From assembly GCA_030688135.1 (NCBI GenBank), contig JAUYIW010000022.1, positions 1-38,127 of the forward strand: 38,127 bases of DNA. Reading direction: 5' to 3'. This stretch comes from Candidatus Uhrbacteria bacterium. GTDB lineage: Bacteria > Patescibacteriota > Patescibacteriia > UBA9934. The translations under genes and the position numbers were made by a program. Below are positions 39 through 37,392 of the stretch, piece after piece. Each line of letters opens with the position of its first letter. The first letter of the stretch is position 1. The notes below the pieces were generated by a model that ran no database searches, was not told where the DNA came from, and worked only from the letters and a program-made list of their open reading frames with translations.

Positions 39-86
39 ATCAAAAAACATGTTTTAGTCCGATCGGACTAAAACATGTTTTTTGAT
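39..86. repeat. 48-bp perfect palindrome (copy A of the TCCGATCGGA family), adjacent to the stop of the 89-625 CDS; may also act as a bidirectional terminator
   Basis: ATCAAAAAACATGTTTTAGTCCGATCGGACTAAAACATGTTTTTTGAT is its own reverse complement over all 48 nt. Confidence 0.95.
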
Positions 87-88
87 TC

Positions 89-625
89 CTAACGGATTGC
101 AAGTGCCCTGTACACAAGAATGTAATCCTCGGCCTTTATAAGTTTTATTAAATCACGTAACTGGAATATAACATCTCTTTCACCTTCCCAGACGCTTTTT
201 TGTATCATCCGAAAGTCAGATTTCTTAAGAAGTTCTCGAAAACTTGACCTGACTCGACGAATATCTTCAGGAACATCGAATACCACAATACAAACCTCGC
301 CCTCAGGTAACATCGCTTCGGTAGTGAATATCTCAGTCTTTAAAGCAGACTCGTATCCCGCATCGGTCAATCGATACAGTATTTTATTGCCCTCAAATTT
401 TAGCTCAATTAACTTTTGCTTCTCTAGCTCCCTTAACTTTCTACGTTCTCCTTGCTCCTCGAACCGCCTTCTATCGTGCGCTATCTCTGCTCTTGGGATA
501 GTTAAATATGGCCTGACTCTATAAGAGCGCATACCCGATTCAAAAATACTTCCCGCTGTGTCGGCTAGTGAAAGTAGGATTTTCTTAGTAGCGTTTGAGA
601 TGGGCTTCGCATTATGATCTTTCAT
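89..625 (-). CDS. PaaX C-terminal/Cas2-like domain protein, probable DNA-binding regulator
   Basis: 178 aa; N-terminal winged-helix-like region (RKLRELEKQKLIELKFEGNKILYRLTDAGYESAL) followed by a Cas2/PaaX-C-like ferredoxin-fold segment (EGEVCIVVFDVPEDIRRVRSSFRELLKKSDFRMIQKSVWEG). Confidence 0.75.
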   Translation of the reverse strand: MKDHNAKPISNATKKILLSLADTAGSIFESGMRSYRVRPYLTIPRAEIAHDRRRFEEQGERRKLRELEKQKLIELKFEGNKILYRLTDAGYESALKTEIFTTEAMLPEGEVCIVVFDVPEDIRRVRSSFRELLKKSDFRMIQKSVWEGERDVIFQLRDLIKLIKAEDYILVYRALAIR

Positions 626-653
626 AATGAACAGATTAATATATTTACAATTA

Positions 654-690
654 AGTATACATGATTTGATCCGATCGGACTAAAACATGT
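654..690 (-). promoter_or_regulatory. Promoter of the Cas2-like gene with an overlapping imperfect palindrome (copy B, 659-690)
   Basis: Minus-strand TATACT (654-659) as -10; ACATGATTTGATCCGATCGGACTAAAACATGT just upstream is an imperfect 32-bp palindrome sharing core and right arm with copy A. Confidence 0.6.
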
Positions 691-6611: not shown

Positions 6612-6634
6612 ACAAATATATTTAACCTTTCTCA

Positions 6635-6659
6635 ATCCGTACATCGGTAGGAACCTTGC
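6635..6659 (+). repeat. Intergenic repeat of the CTGTAnnnCGGTAGGWACC family
   Basis: ATCCGTACATCGGTAGGAACCTTGC; near-identical block at 19613-19640. Confidence 0.7.
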
Positions 6660-7513: not shown

Positions 7514-7520
7514 ATTAACA

Positions 7521-7563
7521 AGGGACCTACCGATGTACAGATAGTTACCGATATACAGATTGA
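7521..7563 (-). repeat. Intergenic repeat of the CTGTAnnnCGGTAGGWACC family, reverse orientation
   Basis: Reverse complement CAATCTGTATATCGGTAACTATCTGTACATCGGTAGGTCCC closely matches 36005-36044. Confidence 0.8.
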
Positions 7564-9100: not shown

Positions 9101-9454
9101 TGGTTAACACCCTGCTGCGTTAGGATCATACGCAATTTAGGTGGAAGATGCATAGAGGCCAAAGGTTAGCTCAACCGGTAAAAACAGCGAATCTCTTGCT
9201 TTCTACCATCTCGAACCCGACTTAACTTTCTGCTGTCGGGTGAGAGATCTTTCGAACCCCACCATCTCGAGGAGCTTGCGATCCACGACGAGAGATCTTT
9301 CGCGGTTCGCTGAGATCTCCGAAAGATTTCTCCTCGCGACCTACATACTCGTCGAAATGGTAACTTTCTACTTATTAAATGGATCAAACAAATCCTAACC
9401 TGGCAGATTAGATGACTCCTCCACCCAAATTGCGTATGATCCCTGCGTTAACCA
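9101..9454. mobile_element. MITE-like non-coding element bounded by imperfect inverted repeats
   Basis: GGATCATACGCAATTTAGGTGGA (9123-9145) and TCCACCCAAATTGCGTATGATCC (9420-9442) are inverted repeats with one mismatch, flanked by TGGTTAAC/GTTAACCA; interior has REP-like hairpins. Confidence 0.6.
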
Positions 9455-12406: not shown

Positions 12407-12497
12407 CTGGAAGTTCGAAAGTCTTAAAGTCGGAAAGTCAGTACTAAATACTGGGAACTTTCGGTTGATAACTCTGTTTGCTTGTGTGGCACATTTA

Positions 12498-12509
12498 GTC
12501 CGATCGGAC
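12498..12509. repeat. Copy C of the TCCGATCGGA palindrome (12-bp perfect core, one conserved arm)
   Basis: CATTTAGTCCGATCGGACACTTTTTG; core GTCCGATCGGAC perfect. Confidence 0.8.
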
Positions 12510-12538
12510 ACTTTTTGACACACTTGGTTAGATTAAAA

Positions 12539-19368: not shown

Positions 19369-19393
19369 AAGACTGGGGGTTTATTATGCATCA

Positions 19394-19530
19394 CGAATGT
19401 TTATTATCGATTAACAATGTTTATTGTAAAACGCAGATGTTTATTATAATATCACTCCAATAAAACGAGCCGACAGTCAATAACCAATCGCTTACCGCCA
19501 ATAAACGAAGTCGCCAGCAATAAACTCCAG
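19394..19530. repeat. Cluster of TGTTTATT / AATAAAC short repeats upstream of the DUF5654-like gene
   Basis: CGAATGTTTATTAT, CAATGTTTATTGT, AGATGTTTATTAT, then CCAATAAAA, GTCAATAA, GCCAATAAAC, AGCAATAAAC. Confidence 0.6.
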
Positions 19531-19612: not shown

Positions 19613-19646
19613 ACAATCTGTAGATCGGTAGGAACCTTGCGGTATT
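19613..19646 (+). repeat. Intergenic repeat of the CTGTAnnnCGGTAGGWACC family
   Basis: ACAATCTGTAGATCGGTAGGAACCTTGCGGTATT. Confidence 0.75.
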
Positions 19647-21177: not shown

Positions 21178-21726
21178 CTATTTATAAAACAGTTCATGGT
21201 TGCGAAGCTCTTTCTTAATATCTAAATAATTTGGAAGGGCCTTCCCTACAAGTGCCCAGAATTTTCTTGAGTGATTGAATTCTTTCAAATGACACATTTC
21301 ATGTACGATAATGTAGTCTTGGTGTTTTTGTGGTAAAAATACTATTTTGTAATTCAAATTTAGATTTTGTTTACACGAGCAACTACCCCAACGAGTCTTT
21401 TGATTTTTAATGAAGATCTTATTGAAAGAAAAGCTATAGACTTTGTTATAAAATCTCACCCGTTCATGCACCAAAGCAAGCGCTTTATCTTTGTTTTCCA
21501 AATAATCCTTGTGTGAGAATGTGCGAATTGCATTACTATCAACACTATTGAAAAATTGAATTTTATCCCACACCCACTGTTTTTTATCAGTGAGAAATTT
21601 CTCAATCAGCGATTGCTGTATTCCAAAAGGACTTGTAATAACAACACTGCCATCACAATACACAGCAAGTCGTAGCCTTTTTGCTCTTTTACTTCTTTTG
21701 AGTTTATATGGGATTTCCTTTTCCAT
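21178..21726 (-). CDS. YgjP/M48-like metal-dependent hydrolase linked to the RM operon
   Basis: KTRWGSCSCKQNLNLNYKIVFLP...YIIVHEMCHLKEFNHSRKFW. Confidence 0.88.
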   Translation of the reverse strand: MEKEIPYKLKRSKRAKRLRLAVYCDGSVVITSPFGIQQSLIEKFLTDKKQWVWDKIQFFNSVDSNAIRTFSHKDYLENKDKALALVHERVRFYNKVYSFSFNKIFIKNQKTRWGSCSCKQNLNLNYKIVFLPQKHQDYIIVHEMCHLKEFNHSRKFWALVGKALPNYLDIKKELRNHELFYK

Positions 21727-21731
21727 AATAC

Positions 21732-24647
21732 CTAGAATTTTTTAGTGATGATGTCCACCAGTCGATTCAAGAATTTCGGGAAGTCTTTTACATTAAATCG
21801 ACCTTTATAATCCCGCAGAATCAGTTCTTGCAAGGTTTGTTTGATGTCTTTAACAAACACATCTCGCTTTGAGGATTCCTGCCATCCACTATCTAGATCA
21901 TCCTCGATACGGATTCGAAGTTCTTTAACAAATTCCTTAATTTCCTCATCTTTTCCACCATCAACAAATTCTTGTGAGATGACATAAAGGGCGTATTCTT
22001 TCAAATCAAGCCCCAAATCTTTCGCCTCATCGCCCTTTGTCTTGATATCGCTCATCAATTCTTCATAGCGACGAATTCGTTCTGCAAGGTCAATTTGATT
22101 TTGCTCAAACTCGCGACGAATAGCTGTTAGTCGTTCGCTAAACTTCTGATAGGCGGGATTTTCATCAAGATTGATTGATATCTCCTGTTTGAGCATCTTC
22201 TCAAGATTGAGCGCCTTTTCTTCTTCATCCATTCCTTTGAGTCGCTCAAGTGTGTATAAATCATTTACGCGAAGTTCGCGGAAATTTTTGGTGATTCCTT
22301 CATAGTCAATAATATTGCTCTTAGTAATGAGCTCACGGACTTTCTCTCCATATTCTTCAAGTAAGTATCTATCATCCTCACTTCGGAATTCTTTCAAAAA
22401 GGCCAGATAGAAACTGGTCACCCATTCAAATGGGCGAATGTATTGCTTCAAGAATGGATCAGGAGAGAGAAACTCAAACAAGCTCTTGAGTTTCATGTAT
22501 TTCTCAACAAAGTATTTCTGCTTGTCTTGATTATCAATAAAAATCTTCAAACATCGACGAAGATTATCCATAGATGGATCTTCAATATTTACTCCCGTAA
22601 ATACTTTCATTACATCACTCAAAACATCAGAGAATCTCGCTTTCACTCGTTCAATATCAATCATCGCAGAATCAACGACATCTTCGTCAAAATCAAGCGC
22701 ATCATAGAGGTTACGGGTAATTCCGTAGTAGTCAATAATTTTTCCTGCTTCCTTGTTTTTATAGACACGATTCGTACGTGCAATCGCTTGCAGGAGGTTA
22801 TGATCGCGGAGCGGTTTATCGAGATACATAACTTGCTCAATCGGTGCGTCAAAACCAGTAAGTAGCATGTCGCAAACCAAAAGGAATTTCAGGGATGATT
22901 TTGGGTCTTTGAATTTCTCAATGATTTGCTCTCGTTCACGCTTGCTCGTGTTATAGACTTTCAAATCATCTGCATCACTATTTGGGTCTCCGGGGGAATA
23001 CACTACAGCCGACCATTCGGCAGGCACGAGCTTATCTAAGAGTTTTTTGTAGGTCGCTACTGCTTCGCGGTCATACGCAACAACCTGCCCCTTAAAGCCG
23101 TTTGGCTCCACATAGAGCTTATAATGCTCCACGATGTCCCTTGCCACGGCTTCCATACGTTTTGGGAGCTTCACCAGCGCCGCTTTTTTGCCATACTTCT
23201 TGATGAGTTCAGTCTTTTGTTTATCAGGCAAATCGCCAGCAATTTCTTCAAACTGTTGGTCAAGTTTTTCTTCATCAATAGAAAACTTTGAAAGTCGTGC
23301 TTCATAGGTCACTGGAATTGTCGCGCCGTCATCAATAGCTTGCTGGATAGAGTAGTAGTCAAGATATCGCTTTCCGTCTCCCTCGTAGTTTCGGAAAGTG
23401 TTTGTGTGCGTCTTGTCTACTGGCGTTCCAGTAAATCCAAAGAAGAACGCCTTTTTGAATGCATTGCGCATATTGATGCCCGACACGCCTTCGTCGCCTC
23501 GGTGTGCTTCGTCAGAAAGAACGATCACATTTTCATCCAGATTTTTTACTTTGTCGCCAAGTTCAGAAAACTTTTGAATGGTCGTGATGAATATGCCTTT
23601 CTCTGGCGACTGTATTTTTTCCTCCAAATCTTTGCGGGAAGTGACGCGTACAATATTTTTTCCACCTGCATTGGTAAATGTCTCAAATATCTGGTCATCC
23701 AAGTCCACTCGATCAACCAAAATAAATACTTTCGGATTGGCGAGCTGTTTATTGAAACGCAGTTTCCACGCAGTGAAATACATGGTGAGCGTTTTGCCTG
23801 ACCCTTGTGTGTGCCAAATGAGCCCTTGTCGCTTCTCTTTGCTTACTACACGCTCCACAATTTTATTCGTTGCCCGCATCTGCTGGTAACGAGCAATTTT
23901 CTTCACCAATTTCTCATTTTCCTTTTCAAACAAAATAAAGTTTTGGACAATATCCAAGAAGTTTTTCTTTGAGAGAAGTGAGAAAAGGGTCATCTCAAGC
24001 TCGCCACCAAGCTCTTTCTCAATATCTTCGTCTCGCCACTGAAGAAAGTATTGTTTTGGTGCGCCCGTTGCTCCGTAGACGGTTTTGAGTCCGTCACTGG
24101 CAATATTGAAACAGTTTGGGATAAACAGCTTGCGAGCTACTTTTTCATATCGTTTGAGCTGGTCAATACCATTTTCAAAACTCACTCCCTCCGAAGCGGT
24201 AGGACTTTTTGCCTCAATATCCACAAGCGGAAGTCCGTTCACAAAAATCAAAATATCGGGACGGATATTTTCGGTATCTCCTTCAAAATAAAATTGATTG
24301 GTAACAACAAATTGATTATTTTCTGGATTACTAAAATCAAGTAGTTTATAGTCGTGCTTTTTCCCTGTAACGGAATTCTTGAGGTTGATACCGTCTCGTA
24401 GTACTTTCAGGAATTCTTCGTTATTATCAATCTTCCTGACTTCGCGAATTACATTCTTAATCTCGCTCTCGTTCGCAGTAGGATTGAGCGCAGAAATAGC
24501 ACTCTTCAAAAGCGGCGTGATAATGTATTCAGTCTCAAGTTCGCGATATTTCGCAAACTCTTCCGGCTTTATGTACTCAAAGCCAAGCTTATCCTTAATA
24601 AACTTGATGATATAATTTTCTACTGTAACTTGTTCGTTAAATTTCAT
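21732..24647 (-). CDS. hsdR: Type I restriction endonuclease subunit R
   Basis: 971 aa; nuclease PDILIFVNGLPLVDIEAKSP, Walker A IWHTQGSGKTLTM, DEAH VLSDEAHRGDEG, helicase motif VI QAIARTNRVYKNKEAG. Confidence 0.96.
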   Translation of the reverse strand: MKFNEQVTVENYIIKFIKDKLGFEYIKPEEFAKYRELETEYIITPLLKSAISALNPTANESEIKNVIREVRKIDNNEEFLKVLRDGINLKNSVTGKKHDYKLLDFSNPENNQFVVTNQFYFEGDTENIRPDILIFVNGLPLVDIEAKSPTASEGVSFENGIDQLKRYEKVARKLFIPNCFNIASDGLKTVYGATGAPKQYFLQWRDEDIEKELGGELEMTLFSLLSKKNFLDIVQNFILFEKENEKLVKKIARYQQMRATNKIVERVVSKEKRQGLIWHTQGSGKTLTMYFTAWKLRFNKQLANPKVFILVDRVDLDDQIFETFTNAGGKNIVRVTSRKDLEEKIQSPEKGIFITTIQKFSELGDKVKNLDENVIVLSDEAHRGDEGVSGINMRNAFKKAFFFGFTGTPVDKTHTNTFRNYEGDGKRYLDYYSIQQAIDDGATIPVTYEARLSKFSIDEEKLDQQFEEIAGDLPDKQKTELIKKYGKKAALVKLPKRMEAVARDIVEHYKLYVEPNGFKGQVVAYDREAVATYKKLLDKLVPAEWSAVVYSPGDPNSDADDLKVYNTSKREREQIIEKFKDPKSSLKFLLVCDMLLTGFDAPIEQVMYLDKPLRDHNLLQAIARTNRVYKNKEAGKIIDYYGITRNLYDALDFDEDVVDSAMIDIERVKARFSDVLSDVMKVFTGVNIEDPSMDNLRRCLKIFIDNQDKQKYFVEKYMKLKSLFEFLSPDPFLKQYIRPFEWVTSFYLAFLKEFRSEDDRYLLEEYGEKVRELITKSNIIDYEGITKNFRELRVNDLYTLERLKGMDEEEKALNLEKMLKQEISINLDENPAYQKFSERLTAIRREFEQNQIDLAERIRRYEELMSDIKTKGDEAKDLGLDLKEYALYVISQEFVDGGKDEEIKEFVKELRIRIEDDLDSGWQESSKRDVFVKDIKQTLQELILRDYKGRFNVKDFPKFLNRLVDIITKKF

Positions 24648-24649
24648 AA

Positions 24650-25492
24650 TTATTTATCCAGTTTGTCGGGTTTCTTCAGCCCCTTAGTTTCTTCGGACTT
24701 CAGCTTTCTCTCCACCTTTTTAATATCTTCCTCCGCGGGCAATCTTTCAGGCGTAATTCCACGACTCAACAGTGTCTTTCTCACACTTTGATTGTTTGTG
24801 ATGTGTTCTTCCGAAATAGACTGTTCAGATCGCAATCTTTTTTCTTTCGAATTAAAGATAGTGATCTCAGTCGCAAAATCTTTCGCTTTCAAAAGAATTG
24901 TCGGCTGAAAATCTGCGAGCGCGCGACTATCTGGTACTCCGAGCCTAGCTTTCATCTCTTGGGTGGTATAGCCAAATAACGCTTTATCTCCCTTGCTTCG
25001 AATCAATCCAAAATTTCTGTCGCTTCCTGTTTGCTCAAAGATAACACCTGAAAGCTTTTTCTCGGTCTCTGTCAATTTGTGTCGAGCTAGTAACCTTTCA
25101 GAGTCTTGAATGCGTTTCTCGATAACCTCGAACTTCCGCGTCTGTACCGCAAAGTAATTTTGTGCAAAAGCTATTTGTTCTTTTCGAGGATCACCGTTTT
25201 GGGCTATGAGGTAACAAGCATATCTAGTGAGCATGACATCCAGTATCTCTTTCTGAGCTCCTTTGGGCATTTGGATCGTTTTCCCAGCGTCGGCAAAATG
25301 ATCCGATACCTTGTGACCCGTGTTTTCACAGGCTATTTTGGCCTTTGAAATAACACCCAAAAAGTTGTCCCACTTGTCATAGCCAAGGAGTTGTTGCAAA
25401 TCACGAGCAAGCCAGAACTCTACGCCATTGTCTGTTTTATTGGCATATTGCTCAAAATTATTCGTTAACGATTGTATAATTTCTTTTTTCAT
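24650..25492 (-). CDS. dinD: DinD-like DNA damage-inducible protein
   Basis: FWLARDLQQLLGYDKWDNFLGVISKAKIACENTGHKVSDHF...LTRYACYLIAQNGDPRKEQIAFAQNYFAVQTRK. Confidence 0.88.
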   Translation of the reverse strand: MKKEIIQSLTNNFEQYANKTDNGVEFWLARDLQQLLGYDKWDNFLGVISKAKIACENTGHKVSDHFADAGKTIQMPKGAQKEILDVMLTRYACYLIAQNGDPRKEQIAFAQNYFAVQTRKFEVIEKRIQDSERLLARHKLTETEKKLSGVIFEQTGSDRNFGLIRSKGDKALFGYTTQEMKARLGVPDSRALADFQPTILLKAKDFATEITIFNSKEKRLRSEQSISEEHITNNQSVRKTLLSRGITPERLPAEEDIKKVERKLKSEETKGLKKPDKLDK

Positions 25493-25494
25493 AG

Positions 25495-25740
25495 TTATTT
25501 TTTCTTTTTTCCAACTCTAATAATCGGATCAAGATTATTTTTCTTTTTGCGATCAGGATTTGACTGTAGAAATTTTGCTTGTCCTTTTCTTTTTACAGTG
25601 TGGTAACCAGGCAAATTTCCTGCGTCGGCTTTTTTAATTAATTCCTTATTTTGTTTTTCAGTAAGATTCTTTAAATCTATAGAGCGAACATTTCTACCTG
25701 TCGATGTCTCTTTTATTGTTTTGTGTGTTTTATTTTTCAT
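25495..25740 (-). CDS. Small basic protein, unknown
   Basis: 81 aa, Lys/Arg-rich, adjacent and co-directional with dinD and hsdS. Confidence 0.6.
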   Translation of the reverse strand: MKNKTHKTIKETSTGRNVRSIDLKNLTEKQNKELIKKADAGNLPGYHTVKRKGQAKFLQSNPDRKKKNNLDPIIRVGKKKK

Positions 25741-25757
25741 AAGCGCTTTATTATTTG

Positions 25758-27038
25758 TTAATTTTTAACTCTCACCCTCCCACTCAATAAATCCTGCATC
25801 AGACCTTTTTTGAGGAGGGTAAGTTTTTCTTTTAATTTCTTATTGATCAAAATTTTCTCATTTACCGCTGATATTATATTGGCAATTTCTCTTTGTTCCG
25901 AAATTGGTATCAGTGGGATTTCTACTTGCTCAAGGCTCCCGACAGGAAGCTGTGGTTGAGCAGAGCCAGATCCCATACTTGAATACTTCGCCTCCATTTG
26001 CGGACTTGAAAAATATCTATATAAAAACACCGGGTCAAATTGATCTCCATGTCGCACTATAAGCATCCCAGAGTTAATACGGATATTATCAAAGGAAATT
26101 TTCTCATCGTAATATGCGACATTTCCAACAGTTCCTCTTGAAGTCAAAATAATATCTCCTCGCTCGAGCTTACCTTTTCGCAATGCTCGGTCTTTTTCTT
26201 GGGAGATAAAGCTTGCCTCATCAAAAATGAATCCGTTTTTGCTCACATTTTTAGCACTAAGAAACAGACAGAATCCTTCGGGTGAGAAATCTTCTTGTTT
26301 TGGATAATTCGTACCTCTGTCTCCATCAATTAACTTTATCGAGGAATTTCTTATGCTTACCACGTCCCACTCCTTAGGAATCTGTCCGATTTTTGTTTCC
26401 TTGAATTTTGTATGCCCAATCCCGCGAGTAAAAAGCTGTTGCATCAACCCGCGCTTGAGCTTTTCTGTCGCCTCAATCACTCCCTGCGTTTTCGCAATAT
26501 CCTCATCCACCGCCCCCAAAATCTCCGCAATTTTTTTCTGTTCTTTTTTTGATTTAGGAATGACAATTTCTAGATTTTTTATGTTACTTCCATACAAATG
26601 GACTATGGTTGTACCTTGCCCAAGTTTTCCGATTTCATTTTTTTTGTAATGAGTTAGATAGTATGCTAGGAAATTCGGATCATACGAATCAGCCTTTTTT
26701 CTCAAAATATTTATATCACCACCTAAAAGCACCGCATTTTCATTTAGTGCTGAGGCAATCGCGAGATCTCTAGCAACTGTTGTTGTAGATCCAGGAATAA
26801 GTATGTCACCATTGACTGAAGGAATACCCGCGTTTGAATTAGTCCTACTTTTTACATCTTCAATAACTTCGTCGTAAGTCGTAAATAGTTCCCCATACAG
26901 AACGCACTTATTTTTACCAGATGGGTCAATATCTTTTTTTGAGAGACCCTGTCCCTTCATGACATAGCAAATATCATCAACAAAAGTACTTTGCCATCCG
27001 TTCGGAATATTTTGTTGTGCTGTATTATTTTTTGTCAT
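25758..27038 (-). CDS. hsdS: Type I restriction specificity subunit S
   Basis: Two TRDs with conserved repeats (IPKSKKEQKKIAEILGAVDEDI...; IPLISEQREIANIISAVNEKI...LKKGLMQDLLSGRVRV). Confidence 0.95.
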   Translation of the reverse strand: MTKNNTAQQNIPNGWQSTFVDDICYVMKGQGLSKKDIDPSGKNKCVLYGELFTTYDEVIEDVKSRTNSNAGIPSVNGDILIPGSTTTVARDLAIASALNENAVLLGGDINILRKKADSYDPNFLAYYLTHYKKNEIGKLGQGTTIVHLYGSNIKNLEIVIPKSKKEQKKIAEILGAVDEDIAKTQGVIEATEKLKRGLMQQLFTRGIGHTKFKETKIGQIPKEWDVVSIRNSSIKLIDGDRGTNYPKQEDFSPEGFCLFLSAKNVSKNGFIFDEASFISQEKDRALRKGKLERGDIILTSRGTVGNVAYYDEKISFDNIRINSGMLIVRHGDQFDPVFLYRYFSSPQMEAKYSSMGSGSAQPQLPVGSLEQVEIPLIPISEQREIANIISAVNEKILINKKLKEKLTLLKKGLMQDLLSGRVRVKN

Positions 27039-27780
27039 GTTTTGGTTTATGTTTCGATAGATGTGGGTCGGAAAGCATCACCTCCTTGAGGCGATCATTT
27101 TCTGTCTTCAAAATTTTCATCTTTTCAAGAAAATCTTCTTGAAATTCAAAAATGTTGAAGTCTTTGTTTACGCCATAAAATAAATCTAGTGCACCCATTA
27201 CTAAGTTCGCTGTAGCCCAAAGATCGGTTTTAATATGGCGGTCTTCTGAGCAATCAAAAAATTGTGTTTTAAATTTACCATCAACAAGACCCGAAGATGT
27301 CCGGTGAGCGTCTACAATATTTGCATGTGATGATAGTGCGTTGGTTTGACCTTTGTATTGTTTCAAAGACGCACTTCCGTCAGGGTATTTCTCATCAAGC
27401 CATTTATACATTTTTTTCTTCAAGTCATCATTGGGGTTCATCATTCCGTCCTCATCAATCAATGCAAACTTCTCTTTGTCTTTTTCAGGATCATTTTTAC
27501 CAATCGCAAATGATCCCCAGGCGGCTGCTTCTGATGCAAACCTAAGGTTAAAATTTGTCTGTATGTGATGGAAACGAACTGCTGATAAAAAAGCTAGTAT
27601 AATATGCTTCTGAAATGAACTGAGAAAAAGTAAAAAGTAAAAACTATTCGGATCAACTTTTTTTATAAACGAGTGGGCAAAATCCACCGCATACTCTGCG
27701 TGCAGAAAAAACTCCTCATTCATTAACTTGGCATTTTGAACTAATTCGTTTTCAGATTTTGAAATTTCTGCGACATTCAT
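27025..27780 (-). CDS. Hypothetical protein embedded in the type I RM operon
   Basis: 251 aa, helical, overlaps the hsdS start by 14 nt. Confidence 0.75.
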   Translation of the reverse strand: MNVAEISKSENELVQNAKLMNEEFFLHAEYAVDFAHSFIKKVDPNSFYFLLFLSSFQKHIILAFLSAVRFHHIQTNFNLRFASEAAAWGSFAIGKNDPEKDKEKFALIDEDGMMNPNDDLKKKMYKWLDEKYPDGSASLKQYKGQTNALSSHANIVDAHRTSSGLVDGKFKTQFFDCSEDRHIKTDLWATANLVMGALDLFYGVNKDFNIFEFQEDFLEKMKILKTENDRLKEVMLSDPHLSKHKPKHDKK

Positions 27781-27783
27781 AAA

Positions 27784-29493
27784 TTAATATTTCAGTTCTT
27801 TTAGATACATCTCGACCTTTTTATCAATTGCTTCGCGATCTTTTTCAATTTCTTTCACCTCGCTCCACACGGTTTTTACATCCACCACCACCTCATCCTC
27901 AGCATTTTCTACATAGCGACGAACATTAAGATTGAATTCATTTTCCTCAAGCTCCTTAATATCTACGACACGAGCATATTTTTCAATATCTCGGTATTCC
28001 TTAAATGCTGATACCATTTTCTCGATGTCCTTCTTGCGAAGGCGGTTTTGATTTTTGCCTTCCTCATAGTCTTGCTCTGCATCAATGATGAGAATTTTGT
28101 TCTTATGAGCTTCTGGTTTGTTTTTGTTGAATATCACAATCGCCGCTGGAATACCTGTGCCGTAGAAAAGCTTTGCGGGGAGCGCGACGATGGCTTCAAT
28201 CAGGTCATTTTTGATAAGTTCTTCACGGATACGTCCCTCGGCACCACCACGGAAAAGTACGCCATGTGGAAGCACGATACCGGCGCGCCCGTTTTCATTC
28301 ATTGACTTCACCATATGAAGCACGAAAGCATAGTCGGCTTTTTTTGCTGGAGGCATTTCGTAGCCAGCCACTCGTCCGTATTTGTCAGATTTAAATATCT
28401 CGTATTCCCACTCCTTGATTGAGTACGGAGGATTTGCAACGCAAATATCGAACGTCTTAAGCGAACCGTCCGGGTTTAGAAATTTTGGATCGGCGAGTGT
28501 ATCTCCGCGCTGAATATCGGCGCTATCGAGCCCGTGGAGGAACATATTGATTTTTGCAATCGCGTATGTCCCGATATTGATTTCTTGCCCATAGAGATAG
28601 AGCGATCGAGCTTTCTTTTCTCCCGCTTCATTTTTGAGATAATGATACGCCTCCAATAAGAAGCCGCCTGAACCAACAGCCATGTCATAGATATGGTCTT
28701 TCTCGTGTGGTTTCAAAATGTTTATAATCACACGCTCAACTTCACGAGGGGTATAGAATTCTCCGCCTTTTTTGCCCGCATCCGCTGCGAACTGCTCAAT
28801 AAGATATTCGTATGCGTCCCCTAGGAGATCAGAACTTATATAAGTATCTCCGAAATTGTGTTGTGAGAAATGATTGATGAGACGCTGGAGCGTTTCGTTG
28901 GGAAATTTGTCTTTGTTAGCAAAATCTAAGTCGTCAAAAATCTTGTCCAGTTTTGGACTATTTGCGTTTGTGAGTTTATCAAAAATCTCATTGAGCTTTT
29001 GACCAATGCCACCAGCTTGTTTTTGGACTACTTCCCAGCGACAATCTTTTGGAACTTGAAAACGATGATTGTGATCTGCTCGTGCGACTTCTTCATCGTG
29101 ATATTCTTCAAGGAATTTTTTATATTCCTCATCCCAAGAATCACTTATGCGTTTATAAAAAAGAAGTCCGAAAATATATTTCTTATAATCCGAGCTATCA
29201 ATTTTTCCACGCAAGATGTCCGCACTTCTCCAAAGAAACTGCTTTAATTGAGTGAGATTCATTTTCCCTGCGTCGTCTGTAAGTGAGGCATTGAAACCTT
29301 TCATGATACTTTTGTCATTCGCAATTCGCTCGATGTCTTCGGGACGATATTTTCGATCGCCGCGAGGACCAACACGCAGAGGGGTGATGAGCCCCTTTTT
29401 CTCCCAATTACGAAGCGTGTCTTGGTGAATACCAAAAATGCTTGATACTTCGCTAATTGAAAGTAATGCCTTCTCGTTTAATGTTTTTTTCAT
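27784..29493 (-). CDS. hsdM: Type I methyltransferase subunit M with N-terminal MerR-type HTH
   Basis: ISEVSSIFGIHQDTLRNWEKKGLITPLRVGPRGDRKYRPEDIERI then HsdM motifs (GGEFYTPREVERVIINIL, YDMAVGSGGFLLEA, CVANPPYS). Confidence 0.96.
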   Translation of the reverse strand: MKKTLNEKALLSISEVSSIFGIHQDTLRNWEKKGLITPLRVGPRGDRKYRPEDIERIANDKSIMKGFNASLTDDAGKMNLTQLKQFLWRSADILRGKIDSSDYKKYIFGLLFYKRISDSWDEEYKKFLEEYHDEEVARADHNHRFQVPKDCRWEVVQKQAGGIGQKLNEIFDKLTNANSPKLDKIFDDLDFANKDKFPNETLQRLINHFSQHNFGDTYISSDLLGDAYEYLIEQFAADAGKKGGEFYTPREVERVIINILKPHEKDHIYDMAVGSGGFLLEAYHYLKNEAGEKKARSLYLYGQEINIGTYAIAKINMFLHGLDSADIQRGDTLADPKFLNPDGSLKTFDICVANPPYSIKEWEYEIFKSDKYGRVAGYEMPPAKKADYAFVLHMVKSMNENGRAGIVLPHGVLFRGGAEGRIREELIKNDLIEAIVALPAKLFYGTGIPAAIVIFNKNKPEAHKNKILIIDAEQDYEEGKNQNRLRKKDIEKMVSAFKEYRDIEKYARVVDIKELEENEFNLNVRRYVENAEDEVVVDVKTVWSEVKEIEKDREAIDKKVEMYLKELKY

Positions 29494-30837: not shown

Positions 30838-30933
30838 TCAGCGAATCGATCTCCGAACAGACACATTGGTCTGTCCCTACACGAAAACTGACTTGTCCTT
30901 AACCCCCGGACTAGGGCTCTCTCCTGTAATTGG

Positions 30934-31045
30934 GAAGGTTCGTCTGGATGGACTCTGTTCGTTGCGACCCTGTCGACCTGCGGCCGCGTTCATCTGTCGG
31001 CTGAGGGTTCGTTCAGGCCTCGAGGGTTCATCCAACGGTTTGTTC
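30934..31045. repeat. 112-bp direct repeat, copy 1
   Basis: GAAGGTTCGTCTGGATGGACTCTGTTCGTTGCGACCC...; about 108/112 identical to 31108-31219. Confidence 0.9.
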
Positions 31046-31107
31046 GTTGGCCAACTGACGACTGGCTTTGGCCGTTCGTCTGGCGGACGTGGGTTCATTC
31101 GTGGTGC

Positions 31108-31219
31108 GAAGGTTCGTCTGGATGGACTCTGTTCGTTGCGACCCTGTCGACCTGCGGCCGCGTTCATCTGACGACTGAGGGTTCGTTCAGGCCTCGAAGG
31201 TTCATCAAACGGTTTGTTC
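31108..31219. repeat. 112-bp direct repeat, copy 2
   Basis: Same unit 174 bp downstream, four visible substitutions. Confidence 0.9.
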
Positions 31220-35981: not shown

Positions 35982-36004
35982 CAACGAAATCTACCAGTGT
36001 ACTA

Positions 36005-36044
36005 ATCTGTATATCTGTAACTATCTGTACGTCAGTAGGTACCT
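36005..36044 (+). repeat. Intergenic repeat of the CTGTAnnnCGGTAGGWACC family
   Basis: ATCTGTATATCTGTAACTATCTGTACGTCAGTAGGTACC, near-identical to reverse complement of 7521-7563. Confidence 0.8.
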
Positions 36045-36057
36045 GGTAAATCGAACT

Positions 36058-36174
36058 ATGAAGATCGTTTTCTTTGGCACACCGGAATTCTCAGTAAACT
36101 TCCTCGAGGCATCGCACATTTCCCCTATCCATCCTGAGGAGCTCAGCTTATCTGCGACGAAGGATCTTTCGTAA
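36058..36174 (+). pseudogene. Truncated duplicate of the fmt 5' end fused to a REP-like sequence (38-codon ORF)
   Basis: MKIVFFGTPEFSVNFLEASH vs fmt MKIVFFGTPEFSVNFLKALH; stop TAA ends 1 nt before the fmt ATG. Confidence 0.9.
36130..36172. repeat. REP-like repeat between the two fmt starts
   Basis: CATCCTGAGGAGCTCAGCTTATCTGCGACGAAGGATCTTTCG. Confidence 0.65.
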
Positions 36175-36175
36175 T

Positions 36176-37129
36176 ATGAAAATAGTATTTTTCGGTACAC
36201 CGGAATTTTCAGTAAACTTCCTCAAGGCATTGCACGCCGACGAGGATATTTTAGTATCTGCAGTTGTGTGTCAGCCTGACAAAGCCGTAGGACGAAAACA
36301 GATTTTGACTGCACCACCTACAAAAGTTTTTGCACTACAAAATAATATTGATGTTATCCAACCAGATGACTTACGTTCAAGCGTTCAAACTGTTCAAACG
36401 TTAAAATCAATTGGAGCCGATGCATTTATTGTAGTTGCATACGGCAAAATTATTCCTGACGAAATTTTACAAATACCCAGACTTCGCACATTAAACGTCC
36501 ATCCTTCCCTTTTGCCAAAGTATCGCGGACCTTCACCAATGCAAAGCGCAATTTCTGCTGGAGAAACCGAAACAGGTGTTTCAATAATGATACTAGACGC
36601 TAAAATGGATCATGGACCAATACTTGCTCAAGCAGTGATTAATCTTGAAGCCTCTGAAACCATTGAAACTCTTGAAACGAAAGTAGTAGATGTTGGCGCT
36701 CCGCTACTCATTGATGCATTAAAAAAATACGCAACCGGACAGCTCGAAGCCAAAGATCAGGATCACGATAAAGCAACGATTTGTAAATTACTATCGCGCG
36801 AAGATGGCGTGATTGATTGGAGAGAATCAGCCGAAGTAATTGAACGTAAAATTCGCGCCTACCAACCTTGGCCTGGAACTTCAACACTGTGGAACGATAA
36901 GTCGCTTAAAATTCATAGAGCGTGTATAGCCCGTGCTCATGATGAGTTGGAAGAAATTCCTCTCAATCTTAAACCCGGCCAAGTTAAAATCGTAAATCAT
37001 AAACTCTATATCGGCACAGGTAAAGAAGCGCTTGAAGTTCTCGAGCTTCAACTTGAAAGTAAACAAAAAATGAAATCAGAGGCCTTCGTAGCCGGCAATT
37101 CCGATATAAACGATATAATGCTCGATTAA
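36176..37129 (+). CDS. fmt: Methionyl-tRNA formyltransferase
   Basis: FFGTPEFSVNFL, NVHPSLLPKYRGPSPMQSAI, ITILD-like MILDAKMDHGPILAQ. Confidence 0.96.
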   Translation: MKIVFFGTPEFSVNFLKALHADEDILVSAVVCQPDKAVGRKQILTAPPTKVFALQNNIDVIQPDDLRSSVQTVQTLKSIGADAFIVVAYGKIIPDEILQIPRLRTLNVHPSLLPKYRGPSPMQSAISAGETETGVSIMILDAKMDHGPILAQAVINLEASETIETLETKVVDVGAPLLIDALKKYATGQLEAKDQDHDKATICKLLSREDGVIDWRESAEVIERKIRAYQPWPGTSTLWNDKSLKIHRACIARAHDELEEIPLNLKPGQVKIVNHKLYIGTGKEALEVLELQLESKQKMKSEAFVAGNSDINDIMLD

Positions 37130-37154: not shown

Positions 37155-37196
37155 AAAATACATCTATTGGTCCGATCGGACCAATAGATGTATTTT
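37155..37196. repeat. 42-bp perfect palindrome (copy D of the TCCGATCGGA family)
   Basis: AAAATACATCTATTGGTCCGATCGGACCAATAGATGTATTTT. Confidence 0.95.
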
Positions 37197-37256: not shown

Positions 37257-37288
37257 ACATGTATTGGTCCGATCGGACTAAAACATGT
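37257..37288. repeat. Copy E of the TCCGATCGGA palindrome, with one arm from each sequence type
   Basis: ACATGTATTGGTCCGATCGGACTAAAACATGT. Confidence 0.9.
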
Positions 37289-37336
37289 TGATGCTAAATC
37301 AAGGTCAAAATACAAAATCCACTGCTTTTATATGTA

Positions 37337-37392
37337 TTTCACAACAATTATTTCACAACAATTAATTCACAACAATTAATTCACAACAATTA
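37337..37392. repeat. Four tandem 14-bp repeats [TA]TTCACAACAATTA
   Basis: TTTCACAACAATTA x2 then ATTCACAACAATTA x2, ending 3 bp before a -35 box. Confidence 0.95.

Follow-up and report, generated by a model that had tools for sequence, protein, structure and literature searches.

Why should a small gene for a Cas2- and PaaX-like protein lie between two palindromes whose core recurs elsewhere in the same DNA? The question is raised by the left end of contig JAUYIW010000022.1 from a Candidatus Uhrbacteria bacterium (assembly GCA_030688135.1), a stretch of 38,127 nucleotides that was analysed as a whole and is called the window below. The original prediction had reported a 48-bp perfect palindrome beside the gene for a 178-aa protein and a related imperfect palindrome upstream of it, and had offered two readings: an autoregulated repressor with distant operators, or a partnership of protein and palindromes akin to that between repetitive extragenic palindromes (REPs) and REP-associated tyrosine transposases (RAYTs). 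Both palindromes are present (Table 1); the perfect one is loop-free and lies 2 bases from the stop codon, the imperfect one occupies the interval 34-65 bp ahead of the ATG, and the two match each other, a point that had been missed. Gene and terminal palindromes together make up a unit of ~0.65 kb. We consider it probable that this unit belongs to a phylum-wide Patescibacteria family whose behaviour resembles that of a REP/RAYT system or of a minimal insertion sequence and which has a winged-helix plus Cas2/PaaX-fold protein at its centre. Dispersal of the palindromes is strongly supported, and we infer catalysis by the Cas2/PaaX-like protein.

The assignment of the protein to the Cas2-like/PaaX type was borne out by profile and fold comparisons. 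It passes the Pfam cut-offs of both PaaX_M (PF20803; 3.7e-10, 40.2 against 24 bits) and CRISPR_Cas2 (PF09827; 1.1e-7, 32.3 against 23.8 bits) and exceeds the NCBIfam cas2 cut-off; the PaaX equivalog TIGR02277 was not matched (23.2 bits against a cut-off of 264.55), the Pfam scan returned no Y1_Tnp (PF01797), and neither an HUH motif nor a tyrosine stands among the conserved columns of its relatives. An AlphaFold2 model (mean predicted local distance difference test score, pLDDT, of 78, mostly >90 in the C-terminal domain) comprises an N-terminal winged-helix-like part and a Cas2-like ferredoxin domain. Its top Foldseek match is PaaX of E. coli W (8a39), followed by Cas2 chains, at E-values of 0.004-0.1 that make these matches structural leads rather than strong statistics. 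In 57 relatives D117, P119, E120, F138 and S144 are invariant, while R126 and R130 differ in no more than two of them. The protein is a winged-helix plus Cas2-like protein that resembles PaaX minus its last domain.

Relatives were found by profile search in 121 of 380 Patescibacteria genomes, often in several copies, and in 7 of the 23 genomes of the window's own family; those bearing names come mainly from Candidatus Uhrbacteria, with others elsewhere in the Patescibacteria. The window's genome holds two further paralogs (C59, 44% identity; C47, 32%), each within its own palindrome bracket. When the same search was applied to relatives and control open reading frames (ORFs), dyads that match in register at 24 or more of 36 positions surrounded both gene ends in 57 of 72 relatives, as against 9 of 1163 controls. 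Among the exceptions, some brackets are cut by contig ends and others have a different core, as in the case of L070, where a palindrome centred on CTATAG stands at both gene ends. From centre to centre, gene-bearing units measure about 500-810 bp. Two loci carry a third matching palindrome upstream of the first, at a distance of 133 bp in G148:C1 (L157; palindromes at 9297, 9430 and 10016) and of 175 bp in G205:C10 (L149; 9401, 9576 and 10241), in a short array-like arrangement. An origin from a phage or plasmid was considered and rejected: a viral scan with one short peptide pattern found no relatives among viral contigs, and the window protein had no tblastn match in plasmids or phages.

The palindromic sites share a distinct anatomy. 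Their dyad reaches ~19 bp to either side of the centre (~38 bp in total), and CG occupies positions 2-3 in 98-100% of sites, which defines the core as CGNNCG. The arms vary between elements and agree at the two ends of one element. Across elements, arm positions 4-19 pair above shuffled expectation (z 3-11.5), as they do in the model alignment, whose rows had been selected for pairing, and the signal is gone at 20-22 bp; the bases just outside the 19-bp arms are not conserved, and no one-sided tetranucleotide of the GTAG type was seen there. Pairing holds even where base use is nearly random, and therefore the symmetry itself, beyond the bases contacted, is kept or regenerated, which points to a hairpin or cruciform step or to the copying of one arm from the other. 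Near-identical dispersed copies agree best in the core and at 12-17 bp, and less well at 8-11 bp; the protein may accordingly have two contact zones, the core and a distal half-site. Hybrid palindromes, their arms apparently swapped at the core, occur in the window doublet and on C43. They hint at recombination there, but given how alike the arm types are, drift may equally have produced them, and we have not used them as evidence.

Are such sites dispersed beyond the gene? The recurrence of the core claimed for the window held up and could be refined: TCCGATCGGA is present in five copies (58, 670, 12499, 37171 and 37268) against a shuffled expectation of 0.05, and none of 100 shuffles of the window reached five; the copy at 12499 sits in a weak dyad only, and the two near the right end form a doublet without a gene, their centres 97 bp apart. 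In the 1.04-Mb genome of the window, whose sites were inventoried by pattern and covariance searches, TCCGATCGGA occurs at nine places and a reversed control pattern at none. Of these nine, C73:26 falls where C73 overlaps the end of the window's contig. Contig C73 (1-80, L017) opens with the reverse complement of the window's left end (7-92), with one base differing within the palindrome, so C73 is probably the left neighbour of the window contig, the assembly having broken at the palindrome; the gene-bearing element would then lie between convergent genes.

Beyond this genome, dispersed sites were sought with a covariance model of the dyad built from gene-flanking sites. Within the family, sites occur in exactly the 7 genomes that encode the protein and in none of the 16 that lack it, and across the phylum set 53 of the 54 site-bearing genomes encode it (Fisher p = 1e-29); palindromes in genomes without the protein, which the original prediction had named as an observation that would speak against it, are thus confined to a single case. 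G020 has ~40 sites and G019 ~18 (matches on both strands halved), with three genes each, and many of these are perfect palindromes of at least 36 bp, single or grouped at a spacing of 36-123 bp. In G116, G270 and G322 several identical palindromes (four in G270) stand in unrelated flanks, gene-adjacent ones being among them in G116 and G322. In 81 pairs of near-identical sites, identity stays at 81-100% as far as 19 bp from the centre, then falls to 64% at 20 bp and 37% at 21 bp, and reaches background by about 24 bp. Solo palindromes, occurring singly or as doublets, are intergenic and lie mostly by gene 3' ends, convergent gene pairs enclosing 14 of them and divergent pairs 2 (p = 0.004).

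Comparison of orthologous loci provided evidence of turnover. A gene-bearing unit of G232 lies between the stop of an rnhB-like gene and a tRNA gene, neighbours that we take to be rnhB and tRNA-Ser; at the same locus its congeners G310 and G318 have a terminator only, and G402 has another ORF. The latter (G402:C5:216480-217480, L177), which occupies the place of the G232 unit after rnhB and before the tRNA gene, looks by eye like a LAGLIDADG homing endonuclease, and the spot may be an insertion hot spot. Between the closed congeneric genomes g46 (G046) and g82 (G082), the g46 unit at 575.6 kb is missing at the orthologous g82 junction; similarly, a G003 unit is missing at the matching place of G001, G002, G004 and G005, where other sequence is found. 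The solo site g82:352437 corresponds to a 47-bp gap in g46, immediately past a stop codon. A further candidate, g82:133193, was discarded as a terminator artefact, its aligned counterpart in g46 being a GC-rich terminator. At one locus occupied in both genomes the arms differ and the proteins are 57% identical, between neighbours at 87-94%; the arms therefore change jointly at both ends, by descent or by re-insertion. Taken together, the bracket, the dispersed near-identical palindromes, the doublets, the co-occurrence with the protein and the presence or absence at orthologous sites support the second of the predicted readings, the REP/RAYT-like partnership.

Several observations weigh against a mobile, REP/RAYT-like unit. 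The co-occurrence is partly automatic, as gene-flanking sites accompany the gene and the model was built from them; its informative part is that genomes without the gene hold no dispersed sites. The exception, G165, has sites and no detectable protein, and at the strict threshold no site was found in 68 of the 121 protein-bearing genomes, a lack that we tentatively ascribe to imperfect dyads and strict filters. Three congeneric comparisons yielded neither a base-exact empty site nor a target duplication for a gene-bearing unit, the congeners being ~75% identical in protein and their poorly alignable intergenic DNA too divergent for base-exact joins. Gene copies inside a genome are mostly divergent rather than fresh duplicates, and no near-identical copies of the kind left by an insertion burst were found among the units compared (at most ~79% DNA identity). 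Finally, PaaX relatives are regulators, among which nuclease activity is not known, and the conserved Asp may be structural.

We propose the following mechanism for the REP/RAYT-like unit. A protein dimer would bind the dyad. Its winged helices would read the distal half-sites, some 12-17 bp away from the centre, and its paired Cas2-like domains would cover the core; there the DNA, probably extruded as a hairpin or cruciform, would be cut and joined. Palindromes and doublets would spread in trans to new intergenic places, the gene-bearing unit more rarely, and most copies would settle near the 3' ends of genes. Through the upstream palindrome the protein would probably also repress its own gene, and a regulatory role may exist beside mobility. 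The conserved unit, the symmetric sites, their dispersal, co-occurrence and turnover were computed directly, and the least certain step is the Cas2-like domain as direct catalyst. More tentatively, and with somewhat less than even confidence, we suggest that these elements form a new class of mobile DNA. Each would be ~0.6 kb long with a single gene, and its Cas2/PaaX-fold protein would itself serve as recombinase or nuclease at the CGNNCG centre of ~38-bp hairpin-forming palindromes and would spread palindromes without the gene, and doublets, across the Patescibacteria with neither Cas1 nor an HUH enzyme.

The best-surviving alternative, which we nevertheless judge unlikely, is a horizontally exchanged, autoregulated PaaX-like repressor, with dyads over its promoter and past its stop, perhaps engaged in DNA looping, and with the dispersed palindromes as its regulon. 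Fold and top structural match are indeed those of PaaX, and the upstream dyad either overlaps the start codon or immediately precedes it. The similarity of arms is also correlated with that of the N-terminal domain (partial r 0.10, p 0.001), a co-evolution of arm and winged-helix domain that is significant but weak. Other features, however, are not what operators would lead one to expect: most copies have a matching dyad past the stop, the arms are perfectly symmetric even where they are not conserved, the same palindrome occurs within unrelated flanks, and a solo palindrome shows clean presence and absence. Distant operators, as originally predicted, are disfavoured because the solo sites prefer 3' ends, where operators would be ill placed, and simple autoregulation because it has no need of a matching palindrome past the stop; autoregulation from the upstream site may coexist with mobility.

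The preference for 3' ends and the stable hairpins would also suit an RNA-level function, in which the hairpins are terminators or processing sites of mRNAs and the protein, like Cas2 relatives annotated as ribonucleases in the PDB (e.g. SSO8090), cuts them and thereby controls its own message and those with a 3' hairpin. We regard this as improbable: the CGNNCG centre belongs to an unbroken DNA dyad, the symmetry of the site reaching right to its middle, the transcript context of solo sites varies (some codirectional, two divergent), and the winged-helix-like N-terminal part suggests binding of duplex DNA. Still less credit can be given to ordinary REPs moved in trans by a Y1 transposase of the RAYT/IS200 type, with the Cas2-like gene merely among them. 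Y1_Tnp proteins do occur in 15 of the 23 family genomes, with 8 matches in that of the window, yet they fail to track the sites, which largely rules out an ordinary RAYT/REP pair: G011 has sites and no Y1_Tnp, G001, G002, G005, G008 and G014-G018 have Y1_Tnp and no sites, the palindromes are without the GTAG tag of REPs (PMC8266576), and the repeat TTCAACCCTTAGGGTTG beside a Y1_Tnp gene of the family (G005:C10) is a different sequence. Least probable of all is a relic of adaptation by clustered regularly interspaced short palindromic repeats (CRISPR), with Cas1-Cas2-like integration having duplicated a palindromic repeat around a gene-sized insert: the Cas2-like domain and the repeat-gene-repeat and repeat-60 bp-repeat layouts would fit, but a partnership with Cas1 is largely ruled out by its absence (PF01867), noted before for the window, from the window's genome and from 18 of 19 carriers overall (9 of 14 control genomes gave matches), and the protein has an N-terminal DNA-binding part and its closest fold in PaaX.

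Table 1. Palindromes and gene of the Cas2/PaaX-like system in the window.
Feature	Position	Strand	Remarks
Downstream terminal palindrome of the gene-bearing unit	39..86	.	perfect, 24-bp arms, core CGATCG
Gene for the 178-aa winged-helix + Cas2/PaaX-like protein	89..625	-	
Upstream terminal palindrome	659..690	.	imperfect; arms as in the downstream palindrome, 31/36 identical in register
Solo weak dyad GGCACATTTAGTCCGATCGGACACTTTTTGACACAC	12484..12523	.	arms resemble those of the C59 paralog
Doublet without gene, first palindrome	37155..37196	.	perfect, 42 bp; 26 bp past the fmt stop
Doublet without gene, second palindrome	37257..37288	.	imperfect; right arm similar to the one in the gene-bearing unit of the window

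Other repeats were seen beside these. A second dispersed intergenic family, CAATCCGTACATCGGTAGGAACCTTG and its reverse complement, occurs at window 6633-6659, 7514-7561, 19614-19640 and 36004-36051, and may be an ordinary RAYT-type REP, since the genome has the 8 Y1_Tnp matches mentioned above. A separate REP-like palindrome, TTCAACCCTTAGGGTTG..CTAAGGGTTGA, is dispersed in genus g2 (G005, G001, G003, G004) and flanks the Y1_Tnp gene at G005:C10:19080-19700 (L208); the two look like a true RAYT/REP pair of Patescibacteria. A tandem duplication of the beginning of fmt (36051-36117 and 36169-36235; 67 bp, 84% identical) has left an incomplete copy immediately ahead of the gene. At 30931-31219 a GC-rich 115-bp sequence stands twice within an otherwise AT-rich region, the copies being 174 bp apart and 96% identical, and short tandem arrays occupy 37335-37390 (14-bp unit, TATTTCACAACAAT) and 19379-19447 (20-bp unit). 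Judging from translations, 21178-29493 appears to hold a type I restriction-modification cluster (HsdR, HsdS and HsdM-like proteins, with extra genes between), the HsdM-like protein having a putative MerR-like N-terminal part.

If the proposal is correct, a mobility enzyme of the Cas2/PaaX fold, which is not known in such a role, would work without Cas1, which would bear on the entry of Cas2 into CRISPR adaptation and on the role of its conserved Asp. A mobile or REP-like system would then be widespread in this small-genome phylum, in which about one in three genomes sampled encodes the protein, and 'cas2'-scoring genes in genomes that lack Cas1 would be accounted for. Even if the protein were a regulator, a phylum-wide, variable DNA-binding protein with a self-complementary site would offer a natural experiment on DNA recognition. 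The literature searched, which left most subscription papers and all bioRxiv preprints outside, contained no description of such a system and no paper joining PaaX with Cas2 or with the Candidate Phyla Radiation. We call the Cas2/PaaX-fold palindrome system categorically new, as a system whose enzymology we infer, because it was not found described, fails the defining tests of REP/RAYT and does not belong to the PaaX or Cas2 systems.

How, then, does it compare with what is known? With PaaX repressors (PaaX_M PF20803; 8a39), its best fold match, the protein shares a winged helix followed by a Cas2-like domain, but its 178 aa correspond to about the length of the first two PaaX domains only, and its gene is bracketed by dyads and stands outside any phenylacetate operon. 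Akin to Cas2, it has a ferredoxin-like domain with the Asp motif of the first strand and scores above the Pfam and NCBIfam cut-offs; unlike Cas2, it carries an extra DNA-binding domain and is encoded by a single gene between palindromes, almost always without Cas1. Insertion sequences and miniature inverted-repeat transposable elements, notably IS200/IS605, resemble it in their single gene, hairpin-forming ends, intergenic location and gene-less derivatives, whereas here no known transposase domain is present and the same dyad stands at both ends. With REP/RAYT systems (TnpA-REP, the 'REPtron') and REP doublets forming hairpins (REPINs), it has in common a small gene with adjacent palindromes (PMC2817692, PMC3116915, PMC8266576), cognate palindromes dispersed in intergenic DNA as singles or doublets, several distinct protein/palindrome pairs in one genome, and the co-occurrence of protein and palindromes. 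It differs from them in a winged-helix plus Cas2-like protein without an HUH/Y1 domain, in sites that form uninterrupted ~38-bp dyads around a central CGNNCG and lack a one-sided GTAG tag, and in a gene bracketed at both ends in most copies; moreover, its gene-bearing units show presence and absence, while RAYT genes are reported as non-mobile single copies (PMC3116915, PMC8266576). The unit is present or absent at orthologous loci, as transposable elements are, and its cognate palindromes lie both dispersed and beside the gene, as in REP/RAYT.
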